Positions 6,994 through 31,846 of a stretch of DNA of 48,702 bases are shown here, in pieces. Position numbers and translations under genes: made by a program. The notes below the pieces were generated by a model. The model made no database searches and was not told the DNA's origin. It worked only from the letters and a program-made list of their open reading frames with translations. The stretch is from Candidatus Acidiferrum typicum. Its GTDB lineage: Bacteria; Acidobacteriota; Terriglobia; Acidiferrales; UBA7541. The first letter of the stretch is position 1; each line of letters starts with the position of its first letter. The stretch covers positions 1-48,702 of the forward strand of contig JAOAPV010000020.1 of the NCBI GenBank assembly GCA_025463055.1, written 5' to 3'.

Positions 6994-7875
6994 CTACGAT
7001 GCTCTCTTTTTGCGTTCCACTAGCTGAAGGATCAATGGAGTGAGAACAAGCTGCATGGCTAGATCGAGCTTGCCGCCGGGAATGACGATGGAGTTCGCGC
7101 GCGACATGAAACTGTTGTGGATCATGGAAAGCAGATAGCAGAAATCGAACCCACGCGGATTTCTAAATCGGATCACGACCATCGATTCCTCTGGTGTGGG
7201 TATCAATCGAGCTATGAACGGATTCGAGGTGTCGACAGTTGGTATGCGTTGAAAATTGATATCGGTCTGGCTGAACTGCGGGCACACGTATTTCACGTAG
7301 TCCGGCATGCGCCGCAAAATGGTGTCGGTTACCGCTTCGCTGGAGTACCCACGCGATGAACCGTCGCGGTGAATCTTCTGAATCCATTCCAGATTAATCA
7401 CGGGGACAACACCGATTTTCAAATCGGCGTGCTGGGCGATATTGACATCGCCTGTGATCACGGCGCCGTGAAGCCCCTCGTAAAAGAGCAGATCGGTCCC
7501 TTCAGGGAAGGGCCCCCATTCCGTAAACGTTCCGGCCGCCGCACCAAAACACTGAGATTCCGTGGAATCGTGAACGTAATGCCGGGTGCGACCCTGGCCG
7601 CACTGTCCATAACTTCGGAACACGGCTTCCAAGTCCTCAAAGAGATTGGCCTCGGGCCCGAAATGGCTGAAGTGGTGGTTACCCTTCGTAGCTTCCTCAG
7701 CCATCACCCGGCGCATTTCCTGACGGTCATAGCGATGGAAGGCGTCTCCTTCGATATACACGGCCATGACCTTCTCGCGCCGGAAGATCTGTTCGAACGT
7801 GTTCCTGACGGAAGTAGTGCCGGCACCCGACGATCCGGTCGCAGAGATAATCGGATGCTTAGTGGACACGGTCAC
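6994..7875 (-). CDS. prk: phosphoribulokinase
   Basis: Makes ribulose-1,5-bisphosphate from ribulose-5-phosphate and ATP, the step that feeds RuBisCO. The 293-residue length and sequence fit the proteobacterial (class I, octameric) type rather than the plant/cyanobacterial type. The P-loop variant GSSGAGTTS (residues 14-22) is present in place of a standard Walker A, and the protein has the IEGDAFHRYDR region and FYEGLHG (Walker B-like) segment expected of PRK. The GTG start at 7875 lies nine bases after the fbp stop, with no strong ribosome-binding site, so translation is probably coupled to fbp. It is the last gene of the Calvin-cycle operon. PRK and RuBisCO together are the diagnostic pair for a working Calvin cycle. 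Confidence 0.96.
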   Translation of the reverse strand: MTVSTKHPIISATGSSGAGTTSVRNTFEQIFRREKVMAVYIEGDAFHRYDRQEMRRVMAEEATKGNHHFSHFGPEANLFEDLEAVFRSYGQCGQGRTRHYVHDSTESQCFGAAAGTFTEWGPFPEGTDLLFYEGLHGAVITGDVNIAQHADLKIGVVPVINLEWIQKIHRDGSSRGYSSEAVTDTILRRMPDYVKYVCPQFSQTDINFQRIPTVDTSNPFIARLIPTPEESMVVIRFRNPRGFDFCYLLSMIHNSFMSRANSIVIPGGKLDLAMQLVLTPLILQLVERKKRAS

Positions 7876-7884
7876 ACATTGCGG

Positions 7885-9063
7885 TTAGCGCCTGATCAGA
7901 CCACGATAAAAGAATAGTGGGGCGTGCTCGGCCGAGAATTGCGGATCCGTGTGGTAGCGACTGATGCGCTGCACCGCTGCGCGTGACCCGAATACGATAG
8001 GAGTGCGCGTGTGGAGTTCCTTCGGCTTGATGTCGAGGATGCGCTGTACGGCGTTCGTCGCGCTGCCGCCAGCTTGCTCGACCAGGAATGAGATCGGGTT
8101 CGCCTCATACGTCAGCCGAAGTCTGCCATCGCGGTAACCGTGCCGCTGATCGCCCGGATAGAGGAAGACGCCTCCGCGCACCAGAATCCGATACGCGTCA
8201 GCGACAAGAGATGCGATCCAGCGCATGCTGTGATCTCGGCACAAGGGTCCATCCGCACCTTTAATGCAATCGTCGATGAAGGCGCGAACGGATTCATCCC
8301 AATGGCGGTAGTTGGAGGCGTTGACTGCGTACTCGGTACAGTCTGCGGGAACCGCCAGACTCGGAATCGCAAGCTTAAACACGCCGGCTCGACGATCCAG
8401 AGTGAAAACATGCACGCCGTCACCCAGCGTGAAAACGAAAGAGGTGTGCGGTCCATAGATGATGAACCCTGCGCCCACCTGCTCGTGACCCGGGCGCAGA
8501 AAATGATCCGCGGGTCGCAACGCATTTTTGACAGCAGGAAAGACCGCGAAGATCGTGCCGATGGATACGTTGGCATCTATGTTCGAAGAGCCGTCTAGAG
8601 GATCGATAGCAACAACCAGGGGAGCTTCCGGGTCAAGAAGGAGCGGATCGGACAACTCTTCGCACAATACCGCCGCCACCGGGGCGCTCCGAACAGCATT
8701 GACGAACGTTTCGTTGGCCATGATATCGAGCCGCCTTTGAACATCGCCATCAAAGTCAGGCGTGCCGACGGGGGCTCCCATGGTTCCAGCGAGATGACCA
8801 AGCGCTATGAGATCTGCGACTTGAATCGAAGCCGTTGCAATCAGGCGAAGCAAAACGGCCAGCGCCTGTTTGTCATTGTTCCCGCTCGCGGACTGAGCCA
8901 GGAAAGCGTCGAGCGACAAACCTCTTTCCAATGTCGAGGGCGATTCCTCGCCTGAACTCGCGCGAGCCTCCACACGTCTAGTTGTCGCGACGCGGGCGAA
9001 GTCGGCGGCAAGTTTGGAACGAGCGACGATAATCCGATCAGTCAAAGGTGCTCTCCGTTTCAT
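7885..9063 (-). CDS. fbp: class I fructose-1,6-bisphosphatase
   Basis: Hydrolyses fructose-1,6-bisphosphate to fructose-6-phosphate in the regenerative part of the Calvin cycle and in gluconeogenesis. The class I active-site signature [10 protein letters not shown] is present, as are the upstream CEELSDP (metal ligands) and the C-terminal GGVFLYPGD region. Start is uncertain. The ATG at 9063 has no visible ribosome-binding site. A TTG at 9045 has GGAGAG four bases upstream and overlaps the cbbX stop (TTGACTGA), which suggests translational coupling. Either choice gives a normal-length enzyme (392 or 386 residues). A longer frame starting at 9129 runs inside cbbX and is unlikely. Placement between cbbX and prk marks it as the Calvin-cycle isozyme (often called cbbF). 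Confidence 0.95.
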
Positions 9064-10087
9064 CGCTGAGCGGGGAATTGGCCGTTGCGTCCTGCCCGAA
9101 CACGCGGCTCGCCAACAGATCCGGAGCATCGATGGTCATGAGATCTTTTGCGGTGATCTTGAGATTGGCAGCGCTGCGCACGATGCGGTTTGCCTGCCGC
9201 AGGCGAGCGCGGTCCAATGCATTGCGGATGGAGCGGGCGTTGGAGAAGTGAGGCTGTTGCTTGCGGGCGGTGATGTAGTGCGCAAGAGCCTCCCGTCCAC
9301 TGTCGCTCAGCTTGTAGTTTTGTTTGGCAAGAATCAGTTCGCCGATTGCCAGCAACTCCCCATCCGCATAATCGGGGAAATCGATATGATGAGCGATGCG
9401 CGACCGAAAACCAGGATTGCTCCGAAAAAATTTCTCCATTGGGCCCGCATAGCCTGCGAGGATGACCACGAGGTCCTCGCGCTGGTTCTCCATGACCTGC
9501 AACAAGATCTCGATCGCCTCTTGGCCGTAGTCTCGCTCGTTCTCGGCACGGTAGAGATAGTAGGCCTCGTCAATGAACAGGACGCCGCCCATGGCCCGCT
9601 TCAAAATCTCCTTTGTCTTGGGCGCGGTGTGGCCGATGTATTGCCCGACGAGATCATCACGTGTGACGGAGATGAGATGGCCTTTGCGCACGAAGCCGAG
9701 GCGGTGGAGGATGTCCGCCATGCGCAACGCGACAGTCGTCTTGCCGGTGCCCGGATTGCCCGTGAAGGACATGTGCAGGGTGGGTGGCTCACTGGAGAGG
9801 CCAAGTTTGCGGCGCACGCGCTCCACAAGAAGAAGCGCAGCGATTTCTCGAATCCTGGTCTTGACGGGAGCGAGGCCGATGAGTTCGTCGTCGAGCTCCG
9901 TCAGCACTTCCTCTACGCCAGCTTCCGTCAGTTCCCTTGCTAGGTCGATGAACTCGGTTGGCAACCCTAAGGCAGGCTGGTTCGCAACAGCAGAGAGGGT
10001 AGCAGACGGTCCGCCGCCACCCGACCGTTCACAGGACAGCGGGTCGGTGATGCCCGGATGACCATAGGATCGTATCGTTTCCGCCAT
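9038..10087 (-). CDS. cbbX: CbbX, red-type RuBisCO activase
   Basis: An AAA+ ATPase that remodels inhibited red-type form I RuBisCO by pulling on the C-terminus of the large subunit. The 349-residue protein has Walker [10 protein letters not shown], Walker [12 protein letters not shown], a pore-loop-like YIGHTAPKT and the sensor/arginine-finger region ([17 protein letters not shown]). The ATG at 10087 is eight bases past the cbbS stop. A longer frame back to 10306 would overlap cbbS entirely and is rejected. About 35 residues precede the conserved domain and are glycine/serine-rich. CbbX genes accompany form IC/ID RuBisCO, which matches the upstream cbbL and cbbS. Confidence 0.96.
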
Positions 10088-10095
10088 AAAAACTC

Positions 10096-10515
10096 TCAGC
10101 CGTATCGTTTTCCTTCCGGCCGGTCGGTGACATAGGCCTGGGTTGTGTAGCGCACGTTTCGCCCTTCGGCCTCCTGGCGGACAAGCCGGAAACCTGGCTC
10201 TTCCGATGGGCGATTGACGAGGAAGGAGAGTTTCACGGACTCCCAGCCATGCGAAGAATCGAATCCTGAAAGACGAATATAACGGTCGCCGTAGGCCCTG
10301 CGGCACTCCGCGAGTTCCATCATCACCGCGGCCGCGTCCTTAATATCGAACATTGGCAGGCCCCACATCTCCCAATAGGTATTTCGGGGATGCGGGTCGT
10401 CGGTGAATTCGATGTTCACCGCCCATCCGTTATCGATGCAGTACTGCGCTTGGGCTCTGATCTGGGCGTCGGTCAGGTCAGGCAAGAACGAAAAACAGCC
10501 TTGTGTGAGTCGCAT
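10096..10515 (-). CDS. cbbS: RuBisCO small subunit (red type, form I)
   Basis: A 139-residue small subunit that caps the L8S8 holoenzyme. The start [16 protein letters not shown] is characteristic of the red-type (form IC/ID) small subunits, which also carry a C-terminal extension forming a beta-hairpin in the central channel. Here that is the segment after about residue 110 ([17 protein letters not shown]). The central [10 protein letters not shown] segment is the conserved core. The ATG at 10515 is preceded by a GGAGA element (minus strand) and lies 17 bases after the cbbL stop, so the subunits are co-translated from one message. Confidence 0.97.
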
Positions 10516-10532
10516 GATGAAATCTCTCCTTT

Positions 10533-12140
<1,608 letters not shown>

Positions 12141-12142
12141 GG

Positions 12143-12171
12143 TTGAGACTGACAATAAAACTGAATATAAT
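12143..12171 (+). promoter_or_regulatory. sigma-70 type promoter of cbbR
   Basis: TTGAGA (12143-12148, one mismatch to consensus) and TATAAT (12166-12171, perfect) are separated by 17 bases. Transcription would start near 12178, leaving a leader of about 27 bases before the cbbR ATG at 12205. Confidence 0.7.
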
Positions 12172-12204
12172 TTTTGATAGACTTAGAAAAATTGAAGGTT
12201 CTTC

Positions 12205-13131
12205 ATGATCAGTCTGACGTTCAAGCAATTGGAAGCGGTGCAAGAAGTGGCACGTACCGGAACGGTGGTCAAAGCTGCTGGAGTGCTCCACGTGACGCCG
12301 GCGGCGCTCACTTCTCGAATCAAGCTCCTCGAAGAAGACATGGGTCTCGCACTGTTTGACCGCACTGGAAACCGCTTACGTGCGACCGACGCCGGTCGTG
12401 AAGTAATTGCAACCGCCGTGCGCATTGATCGCGGCCTCGCGGATCTCGCCGACACGCTGGAGGCAATGAAGGGACTTCACGGCGGGCGGGTACGGTTTGG
12501 CGCTGTGTCGACAGCAAAATATTTTGCGGCTCAACTCATCGCAGGATTCCTGCGCCAGCATGCAGGGATCGACCTTAAGCTTGCCGTTGGAAATCGCGCC
12601 GAGATCATCGAATCCCTTCGCAACTACGACATCGACATGGCTTTGATGGGGCGCCCTCCGGGGGACTTTGGCGTGGAAAGCGAGGCGTTCGGGCCGAACC
12701 CCCATGTCATTATCGCTTCCGCCGACCACCCGTTGAGGCGCCGCAGGCGTGTGTCTAAGGCGGAATTGGCCAACCAGAAATTCCTGATCCGCGAGGAAGG
12801 TTCCGGCACCCGAAGCATATTCGAGTACCTGTTCAACGAAGCAGGAATACGGCATCCGAAAGACAGTATTGAAATGGGGTCAAACGAAACGATCAAACAG
12901 GCTGTGATGGCGGGGCTCGGTCTGTCCTTGATCTCGGCGCACACGATTGCGTCTGAAGTTGCCGCCGGACGGCTGGCCATCTTGAAGGTCGAGGGCTTGC
13001 CAATCGTGCGCCAATGGTTTGTAGTTCGGCGCTCCGACCGTGACCTTCCGCCCGCGGGCGGTGCTTTGTGGACGTTTATAGCGAGAAAAGGAAGTACATT
13101 TTTGCCGCAGGTGGTTCCGCCCACGAAATAG
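12205..13131 (+). CDS. cbbR: LysR-family regulator CbbR
   Basis: A 308-residue LysR-type regulator. The N-terminal winged helix-turn-helix (about residues 5-65, FKQLEAVQEVARTGTVVKAAGVLHVTPAALTSRIKLLEE, read here in part) leads into a linker helix and the two-lobed effector-binding domain (from about residue 90). CbbR proteins sense metabolites such as RuBP, NADPH or phosphoenolpyruvate and activate the Calvin operon. The divergent position immediately beside cbbL makes this assignment strong. The ATG at 12205 has a GAAGG element seven bases upstream. Confidence 0.92.
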   Translation: MISLTFKQLEAVQEVARTGTVVKAAGVLHVTPAALTSRIKLLEEDMGLALFDRTGNRLRATDAGREVIATAVRIDRGLADLADTLEAMKGLHGGRVRFGAVSTAKYFAAQLIAGFLRQHAGIDLKLAVGNRAEIIESLRNYDIDMALMGRPPGDFGVESEAFGPNPHVIIASADHPLRRRRRVSKAELANQKFLIREEGSGTRSIFEYLFNEAGIRHPKDSIEMGSNETIKQAVMAGLGLSLISAHTIASEVAAGRLAILKVEGLPIVRQWFVVRRSDRDLPPAGGALWTFIARKGSTFLPQVVPPTK

Positions 13132-13174
13132 CCCCGCCCCAAACCCCTAAACCTGAACTCTTGGGCATGGATCA

Positions 13175-13195
13175 GAGCCGGGAGACTTCCGGCTC
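13175..13195 (+). terminator. hairpin downstream of cbbR, possible terminator
   Basis: GAGCCGG (13175-13181) and CCGGCTC (13189-13195) are perfect 7-base arms around a 7-base loop, 44 bases after the cbbR stop. There is no real T-run behind it (AGTCTTACG), so it would be a weak or Rho-assisted terminator. Confidence 0.45.
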
Positions 13196-13472
13196 AGTCT
13201 TACGGGAATAGTTTTGATACCTCTGCCAACGTGTTGACAGACTGTCGGCTCGGTGACGGTAGGTCGTTCCGGGGCTCGACCGCGTAAACGCCGTTCCAAC
13301 TGCAAGCGACTGCACACACGGGACATAAGTCGTTAATGAGAGTATGGATCGATTGGAGTACCAGGTGCACCTGCACGAACGTAGGCGGCGAGCGCAATCG
13401 ACATTCTATCGTGTCGCCTCAGAGTCCTAGTCTTTCAAGGTTGCGATTATCAGCGCATAAGCTATCGGGGGA

Positions 13473-13493
13473 GCTTCTTGGCGGGTAAGAAGC
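13473..13493 (+). promoter_or_regulatory. hairpin just upstream of the oxidase operon start codon
   Basis: GCTTCTT (13473-13479) and AAGAAGC (13487-13493) form a perfect 7-base stem with a 7-base loop, ending ten bases before the ctaC ATG at 13504. No good Shine-Dalgarno sequence is visible in the ten bases between. The hairpin may influence translation initiation or be a protein-binding palindrome. Confidence 0.4.
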
Positions 13494-13503
13494 ATAGTGG
13501 GCA

Positions 13504-14574
13504 ATGGCGGAGAAGCACAAAACGGAGTGGCGAGTGGTCGTTGGCCGGGCCACGGGAATAGTCGTTCTCCTAGGTGGGATACTTCTGGCCGCTGGCTTGT
13601 GCAACGCGTCGGCGCCGCCAGATAACTCTGTTCCCAGCATCTTCGATCCGCGTTCAACCCCTGCGGAGTCGATCTCTCATCTGTCGCGCTTCGTCCTCGC
13701 AATCACTGGATTGATTTTCCTGGTGGTCTTCAGCTTATTGCTTTACGCGATTGTGAAATTCCGTAACAGCGATGCGAATAGCAACCGGGAGCCGGCGCAA
13801 GTGTATGGGAGCACGCAGATTGAGCTCGCTTGGACAATCATTCCGATTCTTATAGTGGTCGTCCTATTTCTGGCCACCGCTCGCGTGATTCACGCGATCC
13901 AGGACGCTCCGAAACCGGCGACGGCAGTGGAGGTCACCGCGATCGGGCACCAGTTCTGGTGGGAGTTTCGCTATCCGGCGCTCGGCATCGTCACAGCCAA
14001 CGAACTGCACGTTCCCGTTAGCGACTCTGCTCATCCAACGCCTACGTTTCTAAAGCTACTTTCCGCCGACACCGACCACAGCTTTTGGGTTCCTCAACTT
14101 GCGGGAAAGACGGACTTAATTCCCAATCGCGTCAACGGGATGTGGATAGACCCGAAACAGACAGGCATCTTTCTCGGCCAGTGCGCTCAGTATTGCGGCA
14201 CGCAGCACGCGAAGATGCTTTTGCGCGTTTCGGTGGACAGCCCTGAAGCCTTCGATGCGTGGATCCACGTACAAAAGCAGTCTGTCAATCGGGACGATAG
14301 AGAAGTCACTGGCAGGCAGGTTTTCGAAACAACGGCGTGCGTGAACTGTCACGCAGTGGGTGGCACGAATGCAACCGGCCGCTTCGGTCCTGATCTAACG
14401 CACCTCATGGGCCGCAGCACAATCGCAGCCGGCGCGGCCGAAAATACCAGCGAAAACCTTCGCTTGTGGGTGCAGAACCCTGGCGCAATCAAGCCCGGCT
14501 CGCTCATGCCAGCCATGAAGTTGAGCGATGCCGACCTGGACGCGCTCGTGCGCTATTTGGAGACCCTCCACTAA
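13504..14574 (+). CDS. ctaC: cytochrome c oxidase subunit II with fused cytochrome c (caa3 type)
   Basis: Takes electrons from the bc complex and passes them through CuA to subunit I. The 356-residue protein has an N-terminal hydrophobic segment (about 14-34) and two transmembrane helices (about 60-84 and 107-126). The cupredoxin domain follows, with the CuA motif GQCAQYCGTQHAKM (C227, C231). Its C-terminal extension is a class I cytochrome c with heme site C279-V-N-C282-H283 and a likely distal methionine in SLMPAMKL. The fusion defines a caa3 oxidase, which carries its own electron-donor heme. It is the first gene of the respiratory operon; ctaD follows 22 bases later. Confidence 0.96.
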   Translation: MAEKHKTEWRVVVGRATGIVVLLGGILLAAGLCNASAPPDNSVPSIFDPRSTPAESISHLSRFVLAITGLIFLVVFSLLLYAIVKFRNSDANSNREPAQVYGSTQIELAWTIIPILIVVVLFLATARVIHAIQDAPKPATAVEVTAIGHQFWWEFRYPALGIVTANELHVPVSDSAHPTPTFLKLLSADTDHSFWVPQLAGKTDLIPNRVNGMWIDPKQTGIFLGQCAQYCGTQHAKMLLRVSVDSPEAFDAWIHVQKQSVNRDDREVTGRQVFETTACVNCHAVGGTNATGRFGPDLTHLMGRSTIAAGAAENTSENLRLWVQNPGAIKPGSLMPAMKLSDADLDALVRYLETLH

Positions 14575-14596
14575 CTGAGAGCTTGGGAGACGAGAC

Positions 14597-16273
14597 ATGT
14601 CATCGGATGCGATGGCCATCCACGCAGCGGAAGTAGGCGCCGGGCGGCCCTGGGTTCAAACGCTGCACGAGTGGGTGACGACTGTCGATCACAAGCGTCT
14701 GGGGATCCTCTACGTTCTATTGGCGTTGATATTCCTCATCATCGGCGGAATCGAAGCCATCGTTATCCGGATCCAGTTGATGCGTCCGCACAACGACTTT
14801 GTTTCTCCGCAAGTTTTCAATCGCATGTTCACCATGCACGGCACGACCATGATTTTCTTCGTGATCATGCCTGTTATGTTCGGGTTCGCGAACTACTTGG
14901 TGCCGTTGATGATTGGCGCCCGCGACATGGCGTTCCCACGGCTAAATGCCTTTGGATTTTGGCTTACGGCCTTCGGTGGACTTCTTCTTTACTTCAGCTT
15001 CGTTGGGGGAAACGGCCTGTACGGTGCGGGAAACGCTCCAGACGTGGGATGGTTTGCCTACGCTCCCTTGACCTCGCGGGCGTTTTCGGTGGGACACAGC
15101 ACAGATTTTTGGACGATTGCCGTGCTGGTGTCGGGATTTGGCAGCATCGCGACGGCGATCAATATCATCACGACGGTCCTGTGCCTGCGCTGCCCCGGGA
15201 TGACTCTCAGCCGCATGCCGCTGCTCGCGTGGATGAATTTGGTGATGGCAGCGCTGGTGATTTTGGCCGTGTCGCCCCTTACGGCGGCTCAGATCATGCT
15301 TTCCATTGATCGTTATCTCGGCGGCCACTTCTTTGACACCCAGGCCGGAGGCTCCGCGGCCCTTTGGATGCACTTCTTCTGGATTTTCGGGCACCCGGAA
15401 GTCTACGTTCTGGTTATCCCCGCCTTTGCGTTTGCCTCCGAAATCATTCCGGTATTTTCGCGTAAACCGATTTTCGGATATCCGGCGATGGTGGCCGCGA
15501 CAGTCTGCATTGGGTTCATCAGCATGGCCGTCTGGGCCCATCATATGTTCACGATCGGAATGAACTCGATGGCCAACACGTTTTTCGTGTTGACGACGAT
15601 GATTATCGCCGTTCCGACTGGCATCAAGATCTTCAACTGGCTTGGCACGATGTGGGGCGGGAGGATTCAGTTCAAGACAGCGATGCTCTTCTGCGTGGGA
15701 TTCCTGTTTCAGTTTTTGATCGCCGGCCTTACCGGCGTCATGCTAGGCACCGCACCTTTCAACTGGCAGCTTGGCAACTCATACTTCGTTATTGCGCACT
15801 TCCACTACGTGATCGTGGGCGGAATCATGTTTTGTCTTTTTGGGGCGTTCTACTATTGGTTTCCCAAAGTCACCGGAAGGATGCTCAACGAAACTCTGGG
15901 CAAACTGCATTTCTGGTTGTTCTTCATTGGATTTCACCTGACATTTGACACGATGCACATTCCCGGCGTACTCGGCATGCCGCGGCGCATTTACACCTAC
16001 GAGCCCGGCCGCGGCTGGGACACCTGGAACCTGATTATCGGCATCGGCGCTTTCATCCAGGGCCTCGCCATATTGATATTTGTGGCGAACCTCGTTTTTT
16101 CTTATTTCAGAGGATCTAAAGCGGGAAACGATCCATGGGATGCCTGGACGCTCGAGTGGTCGGTGAGTTCACCTCCGCCCTCCTACAACTTTGCTTCCAT
16201 TCCGACGGTAAGCAGCCGTCGGCCGTTGTGGGATCGCAAGCATCCCGAAGATCCGGATAACCGGTATGAATAA
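14597..16273 (+). CDS. ctaD: cytochrome c oxidase subunit I (heme-copper oxidase, A1-like)
   Basis: The catalytic 558-residue subunit, about twelve transmembrane helices, carrying heme a and the heme a3-CuB centre where oxygen is reduced. Visible ligands are MHGTTM (heme a His), GHPEVY (CuB His, channel Glu and cross-linked Tyr), AHHMF (two CuB His) and AHFHYV (heme a3 and heme a His). The glutamate in GHPEVY marks the A1-like D-channel type, and the lysine in PTGIK belongs to the K-channel. A GGAGACGAGAC ribosome-binding region precedes the ATG. It assembles with subunits II and III encoded on either side. Confidence 0.97.
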   Translation: MSSDAMAIHAAEVGAGRPWVQTLHEWVTTVDHKRLGILYVLLALIFLIIGGIEAIVIRIQLMRPHNDFVSPQVFNRMFTMHGTTMIFFVIMPVMFGFANYLVPLMIGARDMAFPRLNAFGFWLTAFGGLLLYFSFVGGNGLYGAGNAPDVGWFAYAPLTSRAFSVGHSTDFWTIAVLVSGFGSIATAINIITTVLCLRCPGMTLSRMPLLAWMNLVMAALVILAVSPLTAAQIMLSIDRYLGGHFFDTQAGGSAALWMHFFWIFGHPEVYVLVIPAFAFASEIIPVFSRKPIFGYPAMVAATVCIGFISMAVWAHHMFTIGMNSMANTFFVLTTMIIAVPTGIKIFNWLGTMWGGRIQFKTAMLFCVGFLFQFLIAGLTGVMLGTAPFNWQLGNSYFVIAHFHYVIVGGIMFCLFGAFYYWFPKVTGRMLNETLGKLHFWLFFIGFHLTFDTMHIPGVLGMPRRIYTYEPGRGWDTWNLIIGIGAFIQGLAILIFVANLVFSYFRGSKAGNDPWDAWTLEWSVSSPPPSYNFASIPTVSSRRPLWDRKHPEDPDNRYE

Positions 16274-16285
16274 AGGAAGCGATCA

Positions 16286-16882
16286 ATGAGCGCAGTTACG
16301 ACTCTGATTATTCAGACGCAGAGCGCCTCGCGTCTTCCGTGTCGGGGCAAAGTCGGCATGGCCACCCTGATCATTGCCGAGTCGGCGATCTTTGCGATTT
16401 TCGTCGTGGCCTACCTCTTCTATGCAGGGAAGAGCCTTACCGGCCCGACTCCGCGTGAGGTGCTCAACCCGCCGATCTTCTTCAGCATTTGTCTCTTGTC
16501 CAGCAGTCTCACGATCCACTTCGCCACAAAATTCCTGGAACGCGGCCGGCGAGGCGCATTCCTTGGTTTGTTGTCTCTCACTATTCTTCTGGGCGGTCTC
16601 TTTCTCTACGGCACCGCACGGGAGTGGTACCGCCTCATCTACGAGCACGGGCTGACGATCTCCACGAACCTTTTTGGGACTACCTACTACTCGCTTGTCG
16701 GTCTGCACGCGTTTCACGTCACCGCTGGCCTGCTGATGCTTAGTATCGTGCTTCTCTTCGGCTTGGCCGGCCGTGTTGCTCCAGAGCAGGCCGGTCGCGT
16801 GGACGTGCTCTCTTTGTACTGGCATTTTGTGGACGCGGTATGGGTGGTTGTTTTCACCGTGGTTTATGTGGTCGCTCGCTGA
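16286..16882 (+). CDS. ctaE: cytochrome c oxidase subunit III
   Basis: A 198-residue integral membrane subunit with about five transmembrane helices, as in the shorter bacterial form that lacks the first two helices of the mitochondrial protein. The conserved ending (GLHAFHVTAGL and YWHFVDAVWVVVFTVVY) is clear. It stabilises subunit I and its proton-uptake path. The ATG is 13 bases after the ctaD stop, with an AAAGGAAG ribosome-binding site overlapping the gap. Confidence 0.95.
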   Translation: MSAVTTLIIQTQSASRLPCRGKVGMATLIIAESAIFAIFVVAYLFYAGKSLTGPTPREVLNPPIFFSICLLSSSLTIHFATKFLERGRRGAFLGLLSLTILLGGLFLYGTAREWYRLIYEHGLTISTNLFGTTYYSLVGLHAFHVTAGLLMLSIVLLFGLAGRVAPEQAGRVDVLSLYWHFVDAVWVVVFTVVYVVAR

Positions 16883-16903
16883 GAATGAAACTGAGGAGAA
16901 CTA

Positions 16904-17776
16904 ATGGCAGCTCCATTATCCGCTGAACAAAGCAAGCAAAGCACTCAGGCGCTCCACGAGATCGAATTGCCCGCTTCGTCGGCGTGGCCCCTGGTGCTTG
17001 CTTTTGGATTTGCGTTGCTATTCGCGGGACTCCTGACAAGCGCGTCCGTAAGCGTCCTAGGTGCTGTGCTGGCCCTGGCCGGTTGCGTGGGCTGGTTCCG
17101 CGAAGTCTTGCCTCACGAGCACGAGGAAGTTGTGCCGGTCGTCCCCGACGATGTGCCGGTTACCACGGAGCGTCACGTTGTCGAACGGATTCCGGTGGCG
17201 GAGGAACTCGTGCGCGCCTGGCTTCCCATCAAGACCTATCCCGTATCGGCAGGAATAAAAGGAGGCTTGGCGGGAAGTGTCGCGATGGCCGTCTTGGCCT
17301 GTGCCTATGGGCTGCTAAAAACAGGAAGCATCTGGTATCCCATCAAACTCCTGGCAGCAACTGTTTACGCACGCTCGTTCCACGTCTCGCCAGCAGAACT
17401 AAATTCGTTTCATGCCGTCAGTTTCGTCCTGGCCGTGATCCTTCATGGTATCGGATCGATCCTCGTGGGCCTCCTGTACGGAGCCATGCTGCCGATGGTT
17501 CCGCGGCATCCCATTTTGCTTGGCGGATTAATCGCACCGGTGCTGTGGTCGGGGTTGTTGTACTCGATTCTCGGCATTCTCAATCCCTTGCTCGCGAAGC
17601 ATATCGACTGGTTTTGGTTTACGGCTTCGCAGGTCGCCTTTGGCATTGTTGCCGGCATGGTCGTCATGCGGCAGTCGCAGGTGCCAACACATGAAAACCT
17701 GCCTTTCGCATTACGCGCAGGAATCGAAGCTCCAGGAATGGTTCCACCACGAGGTAGCGGGGACAAACCTTCGTGA
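16904..17776 (+). CDS. membrane protein with subunit-IV-like N-terminus, unknown function
   Basis: A 290-residue membrane protein inside the oxidase operon. The first part has two hydrophobic segments (about 25-45 and 48-63) ending in GCVGWFREVLPHEHEEV, which resembles the small subunit IV of bacterial aa3/caa3 oxidases. A charged linker (about 65-110) follows, then four further hydrophobic stretches (about 120-145, 165-195, 200-225, 232-250). I do not recognise the C-terminal half. The ATG at 16904 has a GAGGAG ribosome-binding site. The stop overlaps the GTG of the next gene by four bases, so the two are co-translated. It is likely a structural or assembly subunit of the oxidase or the oxidase-bc complex; this is inferred from position and the N-terminal resemblance. 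Confidence 0.75.
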   Translation: MAAPLSAEQSKQSTQALHEIELPASSAWPLVLAFGFALLFAGLLTSASVSVLGAVLALAGCVGWFREVLPHEHEEVVPVVPDDVPVTTERHVVERIPVAEELVRAWLPIKTYPVSAGIKGGLAGSVAMAVLACAYGLLKTGSIWYPIKLLAATVYARSFHVSPAELNSFHAVSFVLAVILHGIGSILVGLLYGAMLPMVPRHPILLGGLIAPVLWSGLLYSILGILNPLLAKHIDWFWFTASQVAFGIVAGMVVMRQSQVPTHENLPFALRAGIEAPGMVPPRGSGDKPS

Positions 17777-18501
17777 AGTCACTGCGATATCTATATGCAT
17801 CTGGAGCTCTCAGCGTGATGCTGCTCTCCGGCTGCGCTTCGCCGCACGGCCAGCCTCAGAAAGGTTCCGAGATTCTAGCGCCGAATGAGGTTTTGGAATT
17901 TGGCACTCTATACGCGGAAAACTGCGCAGGTTGCCATGGAGCGGAAGGGCGTGGAAGTGCGGCCATCGCGCTGTCCGATCCGGTGTATCTGGCAATCGCG
18001 GACGATACCGTAATGCGCAAGGTTATCGCCAACGGCGTGCGTGGAACCTCGATGCCAGCCTTCGCGCAAAGCGCCGGAGGAATGCTGACCGACAAGCAGA
18101 TTGATGTGATCACAAGTGGAATGCGATCGCGCTGGAGCCGGCAAGGAACTCTCGCGGCAGCCAATCCGCCGTCTTATGCGGCGACATCCGCAGGCAACAC
18201 TGGACGAGGTGAGCTCGCGTACAAGACATACTGCGAAGCGTGCCACGGCTCGGGCGGCCGCGGAAGCGCGAAGGGCAGCGCGATTACAGATGGTTCGTTT
18301 CTTGCGCTCGTCAGCGATCAAGGGCTACGCACGGTTGTGATCACAGGCCGTCCGGAACTGGGAGCGCCAGACTGGCGCGGTGACGTATCTGGCAAGCCGA
18401 TGTCCGACCAGGAAGTCACCGACGTAGTTGCCTGGCTTGCCTCGCGGCGGGTCCAGAATTCCGGGCAACCTTATGCAGCTTCGAATTACGCGCAGCACTA
18501 G
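17773..18501 (+). CDS. diheme cytochrome c lipoprotein
   Basis: A 242-residue electron carrier with two class I cytochrome c domains. The signal peptide ends in a lipobox (LLSGC, Cys near residue 22), so the protein should be anchored to the outer face of the cytoplasmic membrane. Heme sites are C51-A-G-C54-H55 and C154-E-A-C157-H158, with likely methionine ligands in TSMPAF and KPMSDQ. The GTG start overlaps the previous stop (GTGA). It lies directly before the Rieske and cytochrome b genes, so it is probably the cytochrome c subunit of the bc complex, handing electrons to the caa3 oxidase. Confidence 0.92.
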   Translation: MKSLRYLYASGALSVMLLSGCASPHGQPQKGSEILAPNEVLEFGTLYAENCAGCHGAEGRGSAAIALSDPVYLAIADDTVMRKVIANGVRGTSMPAFAQSAGGMLTDKQIDVITSGMRSRWSRQGTLAAANPPSYAATSAGNTGRGELAYKTYCEACHGSGGRGSAKGSAITDGSFLALVSDQGLRTVVITGRPELGAPDWRGDVSGKPMSDQEVTDVVAWLASRRVQNSGQPYAASNYAQH

Positions 18502-18511
18502 GAGTTTGACG

Positions 18512-19060
18512 ATGTCGAATGAAAATACGCTCTCCCGCCGCGGGCTATTCATGAAGATGGGAATTCTGTTCAACGGCGTGGTGGCGACCGCGCTCGCCGT
18601 GCCGGTTGTGCGATTTCTTCTGTCCTCGATTACGCGCGGGCGGGCGAACGCCTACCTTTCCTGGGTGTCTGTTGGATCTGTCAACGAATTTCCGGAAGGC
18701 GAGACGCGGCTGGCAACGTTTCGAAATCCCTACGAGACTCCAACGGACGGCAAAACAGTGGACACGGCGTGCTGGGTGCGGCGCGTCGCTGGCGATCAAT
18801 TCCAGGTTTTTGCGGTCAATTGCGCGCACCTGGGCTGCCCGGTTCGTTGGTTTCCTCAATCCGGTTTGTTCATGTGCCCGTGCCACGGCGGGGCGTATTA
18901 CCGCGACGGCTCGCGTGCCTCAGGTCCACCGGAGCGTGGGCTTTTCGAATATCCGTACAAAGTCGAAAACGGTCTCGTCACTATCCAGGCGGGTGAACTG
19001 CCTACGCCAGGGTCGCCGACCGCAACTCTTTTTGGAAAGAAGCCGCCGTGCGCCGCCTGA
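18512..19060 (+). CDS. Rieske iron-sulfur protein of the bc complex
   Basis: Carries the high-potential 2Fe-2S cluster that takes the first electron from quinol. The 182-residue protein has a Tat-type N-terminus (SRRGLFMKMG), one membrane anchor (about 17-38) and the two cluster motifs CAHLGC and CPCHGG. The ATG at 18512 is preceded by AGGAG overlapping the stop of the cytochrome c gene; the longer frame from 18428 is therefore rejected. Its 3' end overlaps the start of the cytochrome b gene by 13 bases. Confidence 0.95.
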   Translation: MSNENTLSRRGLFMKMGILFNGVVATALAVPVVRFLLSSITRGRANAYLSWVSVGSVNEFPEGETRLATFRNPYETPTDGKTVDTACWVRRVAGDQFQVFAVNCAHLGCPVRWFPQSGLFMCPCHGGAYYRDGSRASGPPERGLFEYPYKVENGLVTIQAGELPTPGSPTATLFGKKPPCAA

Positions 19061-20523
19061 TCACACAAGTAGGGGAATGGTTCGACCGGCGCTTGCAACT
19101 GGCCGCTCCCATTCGCGATGTGTCGGAGCACCCCGTACCACGCAGCACGGCGAGTTGGTGGTACGTCTTCGGGAGCGCTGCCCTGGTTGTATTTATTCTG
19201 CAGCTCGTCACCGGAATTCTGCTCGCGCTGGTCTATGTCCCCTCGGCCAGCGAGGCGTGGAGCAGTCTGCAAGCTTTGAACCACGATGTGACTCTGGGCT
19301 GGTTCATCCGTGCGTTGCACGGGTGGGGCTCGAACTTCATGGTGGCGATTGTTCTCATCCATATGGTGCAAGTCTTCCTCTTCGGAGCCTACAAGTTTCC
19401 GCGCGAACTCACCTGGATCGTGGGCGTCTTTCTTTTGCTGATGACTTTGGGCATGGCATTCACGGGGCAGGTCCTCCGCTTCGATCAAGATGCATATTGG
19501 GGATTGGGACTTGGTGCATCAATCGCGAGCAGAGTGCCCATTCTCGGCGCGGGTATCGTGAAGATGATGTTGGGTGGGCCGATCATTGCCGGCGCGACAC
19601 TTTCCCGATTCTTTGCGCTGCATGTCTTCGTCATACCTGGGATGCTGATCGGTTTCGTGTGCCTTCATCTCTTGATGGTGCTGAAGCTGGGAATCAATGA
19701 ATGGCCGATGCCGGGACGCCTGGTAAAGCGAGCGACCTATGCAAGCGAGTACCACGAATTGACGAAGAAGGATGGCGCTCCCTTCGTCCCATACGCAGTT
19801 TGGAAAGACTTGTTCTTCGCCGCGTTCATCCTCTTAGCAGTTGCCGTATGCGCTGCGTACTTTGGTCCGTTCGGTCCAACGGGCCAGCCAGACCCCACGA
19901 TCATCCAGGCGGTGCCGAAACCCGATTATTTTTTTCTGTGGCTCTATGCCTTACTCTCGCTCTTGCCTCCTTCGATGGAGACGCCCGCTCTTCTGATCGG
20001 CCCCGTAATCGCGATCGGCGCTCTGGTTCTTCTTCCGTTTCTATCGGGGGAAGGAGAAAAGAGCTGGCGGCGGCGGCCAATTGCAGTTTTGACAGTCCTG
20101 CTGATTGCGGTAACGCTGGGAACATTGACGCATCTCGCTGGATTCACTCCCTGGAGCCCGCACATGAATGCTTGGAGCGGTGATCCTGTGCCGGAAAAAG
20201 TTCTGCGCGGCACAACTGCGCTTCAGCGCCAAGGCGCGCTCGTGTTTCAGGCTAAGCAATGCCGTAACTGTCATTCCATTGCGGAGAGTGGCGGGCAGCG
20301 AGGTCCGGCTCTCGATAGCGTTGCTGTTCGGCTTACCCCGGACCAGCTCATCCGTCAGGTGATCCAGGGCGGTGGCAACATGCCGGCCTACGGCAACAAC
20401 TTGAGCCCCGCAGAGACGACGGCGCTGGTTTCCTTTCTGGAAACGTTGTATCCAGCTGGGCAGTCTCCCGCTCGCGACGCGGCTCTTGATGAAGCCCAAA
20501 AGAAAAGCGTCTCAGCGCAATAG
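19048..20523 (+). CDS. cytochrome b with fused C-terminal cytochrome c (bc complex)
   Basis: A 491-residue quinol-oxidising subunit. The N-terminal part holds four helices with the heme b ligands as two His pairs: HGWGSNFMVAIVLIH (13 residues between) and HVFVIPGMLIGFVCLH (14 between). The 14-residue spacing is that of cytochrome b6 rather than mitochondrial cytochrome b. A subunit-IV-like part follows; where the Qo-site PEWY motif is expected, it reads PDYF (PKPDYFFLW). The C-terminus is a cytochrome c domain with heme site C405-R-N-C408-H409 and a likely Met ligand in GNMPAY. GTG start overlapping the Rieske gene. With the diheme cytochrome and Rieske protein it forms a bc complex with three c-type hemes. 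Confidence 0.94.
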   Translation: MRRLITQVGEWFDRRLQLAAPIRDVSEHPVPRSTASWWYVFGSAALVVFILQLVTGILLALVYVPSASEAWSSLQALNHDVTLGWFIRALHGWGSNFMVAIVLIHMVQVFLFGAYKFPRELTWIVGVFLLLMTLGMAFTGQVLRFDQDAYWGLGLGASIASRVPILGAGIVKMMLGGPIIAGATLSRFFALHVFVIPGMLIGFVCLHLLMVLKLGINEWPMPGRLVKRATYASEYHELTKKDGAPFVPYAVWKDLFFAAFILLAVAVCAAYFGPFGPTGQPDPTIIQAVPKPDYFFLWLYALLSLLPPSMETPALLIGPVIAIGALVLLPFLSGEGEKSWRRRPIAVLTVLLIAVTLGTLTHLAGFTPWSPHMNAWSGDPVPEKVLRGTTALQRQGALVFQAKQCRNCHSIAESGGQRGPALDSVAVRLTPDQLIRQVIQGGGNMPAYGNNLSPAETTALVSFLETLYPAGQSPARDAALDEAQKKSVSAQ

Positions 20524-20531
20524 CGGCGTCA

Positions 20532-21410
20532 ATGCCAACTCCAATCCAGAACGCGTTGGAGAACTGGTCGTCTCCGGTTCCGCTTGCCTTGGCACTGATT
20601 CTCACGGCCATCGTTTACATGCGCGGATGGCTTTATCTTCGTTCACGCTCCGTGAACATCATTCCTGCTTGGCGCGCCGGCACCTTTTTTGGCGGACTGT
20701 TTTTGATCTGGATCGCGCTGGGCTCGCCTCTCGCCGCATTCGACGAGGAATTGCTGACAGTCCATATGGTTCAGCATCTGTTGCTCATGACCATTGGCCC
20801 TCCTTTGATCTTAGTGGGCGCGCCCGTAATGCCGATTTTGCATGGTCTGCCGCAGCAATTTGTGCAATCTATCCTTTCTCCACTACTTCGGTGGGCTCCA
20901 ATGCAGTTGATTGGACGTGTCCTTTCCCAACCGGTGGTTTGTTGGCTGGCTGCTGCGGCCGTATTGGTGGGATGGCATATTCCCGCGGCGTTTACGCTCG
21001 GATTGCAGTCGGAAGCGTGGCACGTCGCCGAACACGCGTGTTTCCTCGCGTCCGGATTCCTTTTCTGGTGGCCGGTTGTTCAGCCTTGGCCGAGCCTGGC
21101 GGCACGGCCACGTTGGTCGATTCTCTTGTACCTTTTTCTCGCCACGCTCCCCTGCGACATCCTTTCTGGTTTTCTTGCGTTCTGCGACCGAGTTGTTTAC
21201 CCCATTTATCTCTACGCGCCTCGGCATGTTAACCTTACCGCTCTCGAAGATCAGGAGTGCGCCGGTGCACTGATGTGGACTTGCGTCACAATCGCGTACT
21301 TGATAGCCGCAGCAATTCTCACCACCCAACTACTCGCGACACGCAGTTCCCATCGAGATGATTTGGCCCAATCCGATAGCTCTGCGGCAGGGGCATCGTT
21401 CCTTCGATGA
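20532..21410 (+). CDS. ctaG: CtaG/caa3-type oxidase assembly membrane protein
   Basis: A 292-residue membrane protein with about seven transmembrane helices. It shows the landmarks of the caa3_CtaG family: conserved HMVQHLLLM in an early helix and repeated histidines (VGWHIPAAF, AWHVAEHACFL) that may bind copper. In Bacillus the protein of this family is needed for a functional caa3 oxidase. The gene starts eight bases after the cytochrome b stop and closes the respiratory operon. It is unrelated to the CtaG/Cox11 copper chaperone of proteobacteria despite the shared name. Confidence 0.9.
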   Translation: MPTPIQNALENWSSPVPLALALILTAIVYMRGWLYLRSRSVNIIPAWRAGTFFGGLFLIWIALGSPLAAFDEELLTVHMVQHLLLMTIGPPLILVGAPVMPILHGLPQQFVQSILSPLLRWAPMQLIGRVLSQPVVCWLAAAAVLVGWHIPAAFTLGLQSEAWHVAEHACFLASGFLFWWPVVQPWPSLAARPRWSILLYLFLATLPCDILSGFLAFCDRVVYPIYLYAPRHVNLTALEDQECAGALMWTCVTIAYLIAAAILTTQLLATRSSHRDDLAQSDSSAAGASFLR

Positions 21411-28701: not shown

Positions 28702-29157
28702 ATGATTCAACTGAAGGTGAACGGAGCCGGGCTGTCGTTTGACGGTGATCCCGAGATGCCGCTGCTCTGGTATCTGCGCGACGTTTTAGGACTGACGGGG
28801 TCGAAATTTGGGTGCGGGATTGGGCTTTGCGGCGCATGTACCGTTCATGTGAACGGACAAGCTACGCGATCCTGCGTCACAGTAATGCGCGATGCGGCCG
28901 ATAAGGAAGTTATAACGATCGAAGGACTGGAGAAGAATGGATTGCATCCAGTGCAAAAGGCGTGGATGCAAATCAACGTGCCGCAATGCGGCTATTGCCA
29001 GGTAGGCCAGATCATGCAGGCCGCGGCTCTGTTGAATAGCAAAACGAGGCCGACCGATGACGAAATCCATGAGGCGATGTCCGGGAACATCTGCCGTTGC
29101 GGAACGTATCAGCGGATTCGCGCGGCGATTAAAGCAGCGGCCGGAGAAATGGCATGA
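28702..29157 (+). CDS. molybdenum hydroxylase small subunit, two 2Fe-2S clusters (IorA-like)
   Basis: The 151-residue iron-sulfur subunit of a xanthine-oxidase-family enzyme. The plant-type ferredoxin cluster is bound by CGIGLCGAC and a later RSC; the second cluster by CGYCQVGQ and CRCGTYQR. It relays electrons from the molybdenum centre in the partner subunit. There is no FAD subunit gene nearby, which together with the small cytochrome gene downstream suggests that electrons pass to cytochrome c rather than NAD or oxygen. The stop overlaps the next start by four bases (ATGA). Confidence 0.93.
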
Positions 29158-31415
29158 GCACGATTGAGAATGTCAGTCGGCGCCGATTCTTGACCGGAGG
29201 CATCATCGCGGCGGGAGCGCTTGTTTTGGGCGTGCATTACTACCCCAAGCTTTCGTCTGGCGACAAACTTCCGCACGATACAAACGCCGACCGCGCCAAA
29301 TTACATCCGAGCGTTTACCTCGGCATCGAACCAGACGGCACCGTGTGGATAGTTGCCTCTCGCTCTGAGATGGGCACGACCAGTCGAACTACGCTGCCGC
29401 TCGTTCTGGCGGATGAACTAGATGCAGATTGGAAGCGAGTGAAAATCGAGCAGGCGATTGGCGACAAGCGCTATGGCGACCAGAATACGGATGGATCGCA
29501 TTCGGTTCGGTCCTACTACGATGCGATGCGGGAAGCGGGGGCGACCGCACGATTCATGTTGATTCAAGCTGCTGCGAAGCAGTGGGGCGTTCCGGCGACC
29601 GAATGCGAAACCGAGTTGCACGCGGTTGTGCACCGCTCGTCAAATCGCAGAGCGGATTACGGTGAACTCGCGAGCGCTGCTGCGAAATTGCCTATCCCGA
29701 AGACGGAAGATCTTAAGTTCAAACCCAAAAGTGCTTGGCGGTATGTAGGTAAAGGGGAAGTGAGCTACGACCTCGAAGCACTCGTGACTGGGAAAGCCGT
29801 CTATGGCATGGATGCTCGCGTGGACGGCATGGTGTACGCGTCGGTCGAGCGCCCGCCCGTTCTCGGCGGCAAAGTGAAATCGTACGACGATAAGGAAGCG
29901 CTGAAAGTTGCAGGTGTGCGTCAGACTGTTCCGCTTGATCCTTTCCGGCCGCCGCCCGCGTTTCAACCCCTCGGCGGCGTCGCGGTGATTGCGGATAACA
30001 CATGGGCTGCGTTTCAAGGCCGCAAGAAACTGAACATCTCCTGGGACAACGGAGCGAACGAAGCGTACAACTCTGCTGACTACAAGAAGGAGCTGCAAGA
30101 GACCACTCACAAGTCATGCAAAGTGGCGCGCAGTGCCGGAGATGTGGACGCCGTGTTCACGAAGGGCGGTAAGACTCTCGAGGCTGACTACTACGTTCCG
30201 TTGCTTGCTCACGCGGCCATGGAACCGCTGGTCGCGCTGGCGGAATTCAAAGACGGCAAAGTGACAGTATGGGCTCCGACGCAGAACCCCCAAGCCGTGC
30301 AAGATATTGTCTCGAAAGAGCTTGGGATTTCACCCAACGATGTCATTTGTCACGTAACTCTGCTCGGAGGTGGATTTGGGCGCAAGTCGAAGCCAGATTA
30401 TGTAGCGGAGGCTGCGGTTCTCTCCAAGAAAGTAGGCCGGCCGGTGAAGGTAGTCTGGACGCGAGAGGACGATATCAAGTTTGATTACTACAACGCTGTG
30501 GCGGCCATGTATTTCAAAGCGTCGGTAGATGCGAAAGGGAAGCCGACTGCATGGCTTCAGAGGTCGGTCTTTCCTCCCATTACGTCAACCTTTGATGTGA
30601 ATGCGGTTTACGGCGATCCTCCCCATCTACAGCAAGGCTGGACCGACTTGCCGTACGATCTGCCCAACATCAGTATCGAGAACGGACCCGCCAAAGCTCA
30701 CGTTCGTATCGGTTGGCTGCGCTCCGTCGCGAATATTTATCATGGCTTTGGAATTCAGTGCTTCACGGACGAACTTGCAAACCGCGCTCATCGCGATCCG
30801 CTCGAGTATTTGCTCGATCTGATCGGCAAACCGCGCACGATCGATTTCAACGGTGTGAGTTATCCGAACTATGGTGCGTCCCTCGAAGCCTACCCGTGGG
30901 AGACCGGGCGTCTGCGTCGCGTCGCGGAGATGGTCGCGGAAAAATCCGGGTGGGGGAAGCGCAAGCATAGCAAGGGCTCTGGCGTCGGGATTGCGGCGCA
31001 CCGCAGTTTCTTGACGTATGTGGCCACCGTCGTTGAAGTCGAGGTCAATGACCAGGGCGAGGTCCGGATACCTCGCGTAGATACAGTTTTGGATGCGGGC
31101 TTAGTGGTCAATCCGGAAGCGACACGCGCGCAGTTCGAAGGTGCCGCGGTTTTTGGCACCAGCGTTGCGCGCAGCGGGCAGATTACGGCAACCAAGGGAG
31201 CGATCGACCAATCGAATTTTCAAGACTACACCGTAGCTCGAATCAACGAAGTTCCTTCTCAGACAAACGTGTACGTCGTTGATAGCGACGCTCCTCCAGC
31301 GGGAGTCGGTGAGCCAGGAGTGCCACCGTTTATTGCGGCGTTCTGCAACGCTATCTATGCCGCAACGGGCAAGAGAGTGCGGGATCTGCCGATCACCAAT
31401 TACGGTTTGAGCTGA
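29154..31415 (+). CDS. molybdenum hydroxylase large subunit (IorB-like aldehyde/N-heterocycle oxidoreductase)
   Basis: A 753-residue molybdopterin cytosine dinucleotide enzyme of the isoquinoline 1-oxidoreductase beta / membrane-bound aldehyde dehydrogenase group. The N-terminus has a Tat signal (SRRRFLTGG with a hydrophobic stretch), so the folded enzyme, probably with its small subunit, is exported. Cofactor contacts include [12 protein letters not shown] and the C-terminal [11 protein letters not shown], where the Glu is the expected catalytic base. The substrate could be an aldehyde or an N-heterocycle; sequence alone does not decide. Confidence 0.92.
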
Positions 31416-31477
31416 GCTTTGACACGAAGGCGCAGAGCCGGTTGAACCGAAAATTGTGTTGAAACGAGGATGAAGTC

Positions 31478-31846
31478 ATGTCTGTAAGGGAAAAGCGAGA
31501 TTCGATAGTCTGCACGTCGGCAATTGTGATCGTGATTGTCGCCGAACTAATATTGTTTTCGGCATCGACTGTGCGAGCGGGCGGTCAAGACGGTGCGTCC
31601 GCCAAGGCGACTTTCCAAGCGAAATGCGCCATGTGCCATGGTCCAGATGGGGCCGGCTCTGAAGTCGGAAAAAGCATGAAAGTTCCCGATCTTCGATCAG
31701 AAGCAATTCAGAAGATGCCCGATGCAGAACTCGCGAAGACAATTTCCGAAGGCAAGGGCGGAATGCCTCCGTTCAAGAGTTCGCTGAGTGAAGCGCAGAT
31801 TCATGCCTTGGTGAGGTACGTTCGCTCGCTGCGTCAGAAAAAGTAG
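31478..31846 (+). CDS. small exported cytochrome c (class I)
   Basis: A 122-residue periplasmic cytochrome with a signal peptide (about residues 1-37), one heme site C50-A-M-C53-H54 and a probable methionine ligand in GGMPPF. It lies 62 bases after the molybdenum hydroxylase large subunit in the same direction. The likely role is to carry electrons from that enzyme to the respiratory chain, for example to the caa3 oxidase encoded elsewhere in this window. Confidence 0.92.
   Translation: MSVREKRDSIVCTSAIVIVIVAELILFSASTVRAGGQDGASAKATFQAKCAMCHGPDGAGSEVGKSMKVPDLRSEAIQKMPDAELAKTISEGKGGMPPFKSSLSEAQIHALVRYVRSLRQKK

Follow-up and report, generated by a model that had tools for sequence, protein, structure and literature searches.

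A candidate quinol-to-oxygen branch encoded by an acidobacterial bc-A1 caa3 superoperon

Does an operon that places a caa3 oxidase directly beside a bc complex encode an obligate respiratory supercomplex, or one branch among several in the same cell? The locus that raises this question lies at 13504-21410 of a 48,702 nt stretch of Candidatus Acidiferrum typicum DNA (GenBank assembly GCA_025463055.1, contig JAOAPV010000020.1, positions 1 to 48,702; hereafter the window), which belongs, as contig C52, to a genome of 5.33 Mb with a completeness of 98.9% and a contamination of 2.45%. A first-pass annotation, made from the sequence alone, read its genes as the layout of an obligate complex III-IV supercomplex, analogous in logic to the actinobacterial one, in which no soluble carrier would be needed. 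By its matched synteny, with A1 oxidase genes upstream of bc genes, the cluster is a member of the acidobacterial bc1-A1 caa3 superoperon. The gene cluster is therefore not new, since Trojan et al. 2021 (PMC8407424, as excerpted) already describe five acidobacterial strains in which the A1 caa3 genes always lie in an operon upstream of the bc1 genes, a "superoperon". Our favoured explanation, held with modest confidence, is that the operon encodes one quinol-to-O2 branch, the two complexes of which most likely associate as a facultative supercomplex beside other branches.

Gene content, order, cofactor motifs and co-inheritance could be read directly from the window and its relatives. Eight open reading frames (ORFs), all on the + strand, occupy the span, with successive intergenic gaps of 22, 12, 21, -4, 10, -13 and 8 nt; the described row of same-direction genes with overlaps or short gaps was thus recovered in full (gaps of 22 nt at most). 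The first gene, ctaC (13504..14574, 356 aa; PF00116, PF02790 and PF00034, TIGR02866 over cut-off), encodes oxidase subunit II with a CuA site and a C-terminal monohaem cytochrome c (caa3 type), and its best PDB relative is 2yev_B (E 1.3e-68), which we take to be the Thermus caa3 oxidase. It is followed by ctaD (14597..16273, 558 aa; TIGR02891 at 703.8 bits, over cut-off), haem-copper oxidase subunit I, by ctaE (16286..16882, 198 aa; PF00510, COX3), subunit III, and by orf4 (16904..17776, 290 aa), which the first-pass annotation had left without an identity and whose product joins a weak CtaF/subunit-IV-like N-terminal segment (PF12270, below cut-off) to a membrane domain. Next come a diheme cytochrome c, a predicted lipoprotein (17773..18501, 242 aa; two PF13442 stretches), a Rieske iron-sulphur protein (18512..19060, 182 aa; PF00355, with CAHLGC and CPCHG), a cytochrome b fused to a C-terminal monohaem cytochrome c (19048..20523, 491 aa; PF00033, PF13442 and a weak PF00032 match just below cut-off; hereafter cytochrome b-c) and the caa3 assembly factor ctaG (20532..21410, 292 aa; PF09678 at 181 bits, over cut-off). 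Pfam and NCBIfam thus match the gene list of the first-pass annotation (Rieske, cytochrome b-c, diheme c, ctaC, ctaD, ctaE and an assembly factor), with one correction, the Rieske start, which we place at the ATG at 18512, preceded by AGGAG, in place of the TTG start of the long ORF at 18428. Terminator-like matches numbered 16 against 11.5 (standard deviation 3.5) in shuffled sequences, with none inside any gap between the eight genes, a result that agrees with the single operon proposed earlier. A sigma-70-like promoter scan was uninformative, with 2 candidates where 4.2 were expected, none of them in the 372 nt upstream intergenic region (13132..13503, + strand) that we presume, from its position, to be the promoter region.

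The cofactor motifs of such a chain are present. Four CXXCH motifs were counted in the operon proteins, one in CtaC, two in the diheme protein (at 51 and 154) and one in cytochrome b-c (at 405), in accord with the earlier claim of at least four c-type haems. CtaC carries the CuA motif C227-x3-C-x3-H-x2-M, CtaD carries GHPEVY at 265, in which the glutamate is presumably the criterion of the A1 subtype, together with an HH haem-copper motif, and in cytochrome b H91, H105, H192 and H207, which we take to be the haem-b ligand positions, are invariant in 11 of 11 aligned sequences. Relatives' loci were collected by a cytochrome b-c search of genome_contigs, of which the best 80 of 274 matches were kept, a sample biased to close relatives; motif counts refer to the readable genes and their denominators vary accordingly. 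One CXXCH and the CuA motif occur in all 55 CtaC proteins and GHPEVY in all 60 CtaD proteins read; of the 72 diheme proteins 71 have two CXXCH and one has three, and each of the 79 cytochrome b-c proteins has one. ORFs with Rieske motifs were present at 74 of 79 loci, those without being L055, L069, L095, L108 and L127, and a tblastn match at 78 of 80. At the Qo motif position the window cytochrome b reads PDYF, PDFF and PDYF being common among relatives and 15 of 79 falling outside the search pattern. Aspartate at the second position of this motif points to menaquinone, from which we infer that the quinol substrate would be menaquinol. An excerpt of PMC9162462 reports that the second Qo-motif residue correlates with quinone species and cofactor potential.

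The survey of gene order that had been proposed with the first-pass annotation found the order kept. With more than 6.5 kb upstream and more than 1.2 kb downstream as the flank criterion, 51 of the 80 loci could be scored in full, and 48 of these carry all eight genes in order, whilst the remaining 29, which are cut by contig ends, all show a contiguous part of the same order. By strain label two of the loci belong to KBS 83 (L117) and TAA 166 (L122), both with the same eight genes in the same order; KBS 83 has more than one such superoperon, of which L117 may be any copy. The nearest named records of the window cytochrome b-c are acidobacterial metagenome-assembled genomes and isolates, for example Edaphobacter, Granulicella and Acidipila. 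Two loci of the 80 carry non-acidobacterial titles, L059 ("Betaproteobacteria") and L106 ("Myxococcaceae"), the latter being a superoperon end on a 6.2 kb contig and a case of either transfer or misbinning. Some loci show irregularities by tblastn, namely a split or extra ctaD piece in L080 and L083 and a second ctaC match in L036 and L054, each a possible frameshift or duplication. Among the 47 loci with all eight proteins, in which the Rieske proteins were picked by motif, the ctaD and cytochrome b-c distances between pairs of loci have a correlation of 0.88. That the oxidase and bc halves form a co-inherited quinol-to-oxygen module is, on these comparisons of genes, well supported.

Read together, the genes propose an electron path, a quinone type and an association of the two complexes. 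Menaquinol would be oxidised by the Rieske/cytochrome b unit. The Rieske cluster would hand its electrons to the c haem of the cytochrome b fusion, to the diheme lipoprotein, or to both, and from there they would reach the c haem fused to CtaC, then CuA, haem a and the binuclear centre. Copper assembly would be served by CtaG, orf4 would resemble oxidase subunit IV and bear an additional membrane domain, and the two complexes would associate in the membrane as a facultative supercomplex, with other branches in the same cell. For this superoperon Trojan et al. (PMC8407424, in part) already suggest supercomplexes that bypass soluble carriers. Of the III-IV layout claimed by the first-pass annotation, the co-inherited module survives and a supercomplex is plausible, but the obligate, carrier-free form is not supported.

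Several points weigh against the association that we favour. Synteny and co-inheritance do not prove contact and, taken without a species-tree baseline, would be compatible with plain vertical descent. In three of the 51 flanked loci (L077, L100 and L114) ctaG, the sole missing gene, was not found beside the operon; in the 47-locus comparison cytochrome b-c distances correlate less well with those of ctaE (0.74) and ctaG (0.72), the ctaD and cytochrome b-c trees have 21 of 44 splits in common, and three of the 23 ctaD splits with support contradict splits supported for cytochrome b-c. In KBS 83 ctaC transcripts are higher than the remainder of the superoperon, and additional single A1 or A2 caa3 homologs occur outside superoperons (PMC8407424, as excerpted). 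A haem subunit of the F. johnsoniae alternative complex III (ACIII) is dispensable for electron transfer to aa3 (PMC8552683, in part), so a haem count does not fix the electron path. Finally, monohaem cytochromes c of only 113-124 aa are encoded at no fewer than three places in the genome, at 1305-1679 of L202, at 31478-31846 of the window and at 7008-7349 of L198; all have signal-like N-terminal segments and, judged by eye, look secreted and lack a lipobox.

These small proteins are what a different reading would need, in which the operon encodes two separate complexes, co-transcribed for matched dosage and linked by a small soluble cytochrome c. On L198 a further Rieske/cytochrome b-c gene pair (Rieske motifs CPHLGC and CPCHG) has a small cytochrome c gene upstream of it and points the same way. 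We consider this reading possible, if clearly less probable than a facultative supercomplex, for the diheme lipoprotein and the fused c domains are kept among relatives (55/55 CtaC, 72/72 diheme proteins with at least two motifs, 79/79 cytochrome b-c), which would offer a possible membrane-bound route. The obligate supercomplex of the first-pass annotation, as in Actinobacteria, could call on the conserved superoperon, on the presence of a diheme cytochrome c and on structure: the model of the diheme protein (predicted local distance difference test score, pLDDT, 87) finds as its best Foldseek match 7rh6_O, a chain of the mycobacterial III-IV supercomplex (E 7.5e-5, TM-scores only 0.36 and 0.40), and actinobacterial supercomplex entries supply seven of the first ten rows, the chains in question being presumably QcrC. 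However, those seven rows have TM-scores of 0.33-0.36 by query length and 0.36-0.45 by target length with root-mean-square deviations of 8.8-10.2, and other multi-haem proteins score like them, a Kuenenia protein ranking second and thiosulphate dehydrogenase filling the remaining two rows. When the model was compared with the PDB by VIA-align, single cytochrome c domains led (Z up to 11.6) and no actinobacterial supercomplex entry stood among the 50 rows listed, a result that excludes nothing. CtaC moreover has its own c domain, and the actinobacterial complex is called obligate since those bacteria are without small c-cytochromes (PMC8361435, as excerpted), unlike the genome studied here. Obligacy by way of an absent soluble cytochrome c is rejected in view of the candidate carriers present, the earlier statement that no soluble carrier would be needed finds no support for the same reason, and the obligate form, against which the other oxidases and the second Rieske/cytochrome b-c pair also count, is in our judgement unlikely. 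Three haem-copper oxidase genes lie elsewhere in the genome, a caa3-type on C49, with an NrfD (ACIII-type) gene ~5 kb away, another oxidase on C138 and a cbb3-like one on C53; because of these, the second bc pair and the small cytochromes c, the superoperon would be one branch among several, in a cell that appears to have a soluble carrier at hand.

The remaining alternative concerns the neighbouring genes. Directly upstream, at 6994-13131 on the - strand, the window encodes phosphoribulokinase, FBPase, a CbbX-like AAA protein and the small and large chains of RuBisCO, beside which stands a divergent LysR regulator resembling CbbR (NF045990, below cut-off). The bc half might then run partly in reverse or feed a special branch, for example an uphill electron flow tied to these Calvin-cycle genes. 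We regard this as highly improbable: cbbL, cbbS, cbbR and phosphoribulokinase have no tblastn match at the 80 relatives' loci (E ≤ 1e-3, both strands), whereas all four match the window, and within the genus the RuBisCO family was matched in a single genome of 36, namely the window's own (the other 35, several of them incomplete, are without a match), against 11 of 36 for the superoperon's bc gene at ≥77% identity. Because of this single occurrence, the Calvin-cycle genes may, as their distribution suggests, have been acquired by transfer, a binning error being the alternative.

The fourth gene of the facultative branch that we favour, orf4, is the part that this analysis adds. Co-occurrence was scored in three sets, the 36 genomes of the genus, 81 relatives and 297 phylum genomes (completeness ≥90% requested), the last by the best first-look candidates per genome, at most 8 for orf4 and 5 for the bc gene. 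At ≥70% identity the bc gene is present in 14 of the 81 relatives, and full-length orf4 in those same 14; at E ≤ 1e-130 it is present in 19 of the 297 phylum genomes, with full-length orf4 in 18 of them. In the nineteenth genome (G225) the bc gene lies only 966 bases inside its contig's start, a position from which orf4 would fall off the contig, and no genome among the 297 and the 81 had full-length orf4 without the bc gene. The distance from orf4 to the bc gene is 1.3-1.6 kb in all 19 listed orf4 copies, two of which hold one in-frame TGA each in the matched frame (G160 and one of the two in G293). Short matches confined to the N-terminal segment were found in G046, G240 and G257. A weak likeness of this segment to Cyt_c_ox_IV (PF12270) reaches E ≤ 0.1 in 46 of 54 members; what follows it is predominantly helical and, from its hydropathy, a membrane domain. 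The AF2 model of orf4 (pLDDT 76, predicted template modelling score 0.69) gave no PDB match at E ≤ 0.001 when searched whole; COX3-type chains among the top-ranked rows, at E 0.49 and above, were not used. Orf4 had no match in the plasmids database. In the diheme protein the lipobox-position Cys21 is invariant in 44 of 44 aligned sequences, which were chosen by length from the 72 (L131 passed the length filter but was omitted). General literature searches, none aimed at either protein by name, turned up no publication on orf4 or the diheme lipoprotein. We tentatively suggest, as an idea that is more doubtful than probable, that the orf4 membrane domain and the diheme lipoprotein form a dedicated III-IV docking pair, part of a wired supercomplex that evolved within the acidobacteria from parts unlike those of Actinobacteria and distinct from a simpler Deinococcus-type cluster; the docking role is one that we infer for both proteins.

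Two further gene sets in the genome were noted. On C53 (L201 6437-9175) COX1, FixO and two cytochrome c domains fall within a single ORF of 912 aa, which would encode a cbb3-type oxidase as one fused polypeptide. At 28702-31846 of the window a 2Fe-2S protein, a molybdopterin-binding oxidase subunit and a 122-aa cytochrome c stand in a row, likely a periplasmic dehydrogenase with its own small electron carrier. Genome-wide, PF13442 and PF00034 match 29 and 30 stretches, largely in the same proteins and including the operon's own.

Amongst known systems the window is closest to the published superoperon, with the same caa3-upstream-of-bc operon and no tested feature that separates the window member, save that it adjoins Calvin-cycle genes, which were found at 0 of the 80 relatives' loci. 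One such superoperon is expressed across O2 levels in KBS 83, and the low-affinity caa3 oxidases of acidobacteria reportedly function at O2 levels in the nanomolar range (both PMC8407424, as excerpted). What this analysis adds to that description is the account of orf4, with its CtaF-like segment, its membrane domain and its co-occurrence with the bc gene. The ACIII-A2 caa3 superoperon of the same source, which likewise sets a complex III-type enzyme with caa3 genes, resembles the NrfD-plus-caa3 cluster on C49 (oxidase subtype not assigned); both have an NrfD-based ACIII in place of the Rieske/cytochrome b unit of the window operon.

With the obligate bcc-aa3 supercomplex of Actinobacteria (6hwh, 6adq, 7rh6, 7qhm), which has a subunit IV, CtaF, the operon has in common a diheme c, a Rieske/cytochrome b unit and an aa3-type oxidase. 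It differs in that CtaC and cytochrome b both have fused c domains and that the diheme protein is a predicted lipoprotein, and the genome differs in having small c-cytochromes. Bacillus PS3, in which the oxidase is a caa3 enzyme, offers another likeness, a cytochrome oxidase joined with a bc complex. This bc1-cytochrome oxidase supercomplex acts as a quinol oxidase (work cited in PMC8361435, as excerpted).

More distant relatives share the bc gene in other settings. Within the plasmids database cytochrome b-c found 99 records, of which three (Deinococcus, H1-H3) extend over ≥80% of the query, whilst a Mesorhizobium plasmid relative has Rieske and cytochrome b and no oxidase genes in the stretch shown; a search of viral_contigs found no cytochrome b-c relative. 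At L050 (1339-9899), and also L051 and L052, a ~42% identical cytochrome b-c and a Rieske protein cluster with NarG/NarH-like genes (Pfam on L050 only), and the same bc family may there work with nitrate reductase. The cluster on Deinococcus gobiensis plasmid P1 (L133, 5329-11365) looks like a simpler version of the superoperon layout; both it and the locus of G046 (L049) hold subunits II, I and III, ctaG, a short protein, Rieske and cytochrome b-c, with ctaG before Rieske and a cytochrome b-c ~42% identical to that of the window. The short protein is annotated as hypothetical in Deinococcus and matches the orf4 N-terminus in L049. Because neither a diheme cytochrome nor the orf4 C-terminal domain was found in these two clusters, both parts would appear to go together with the acidobacterial form. 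Acidobacteria abound in soil. The genomic observation alone is already published; what deserves an experiment is the orf4 membrane domain. If the wired supercomplex proved true, it would add one more architecture to the actinobacterial and ACIII-caa3 ones, with orf4 as its testable new subunit.

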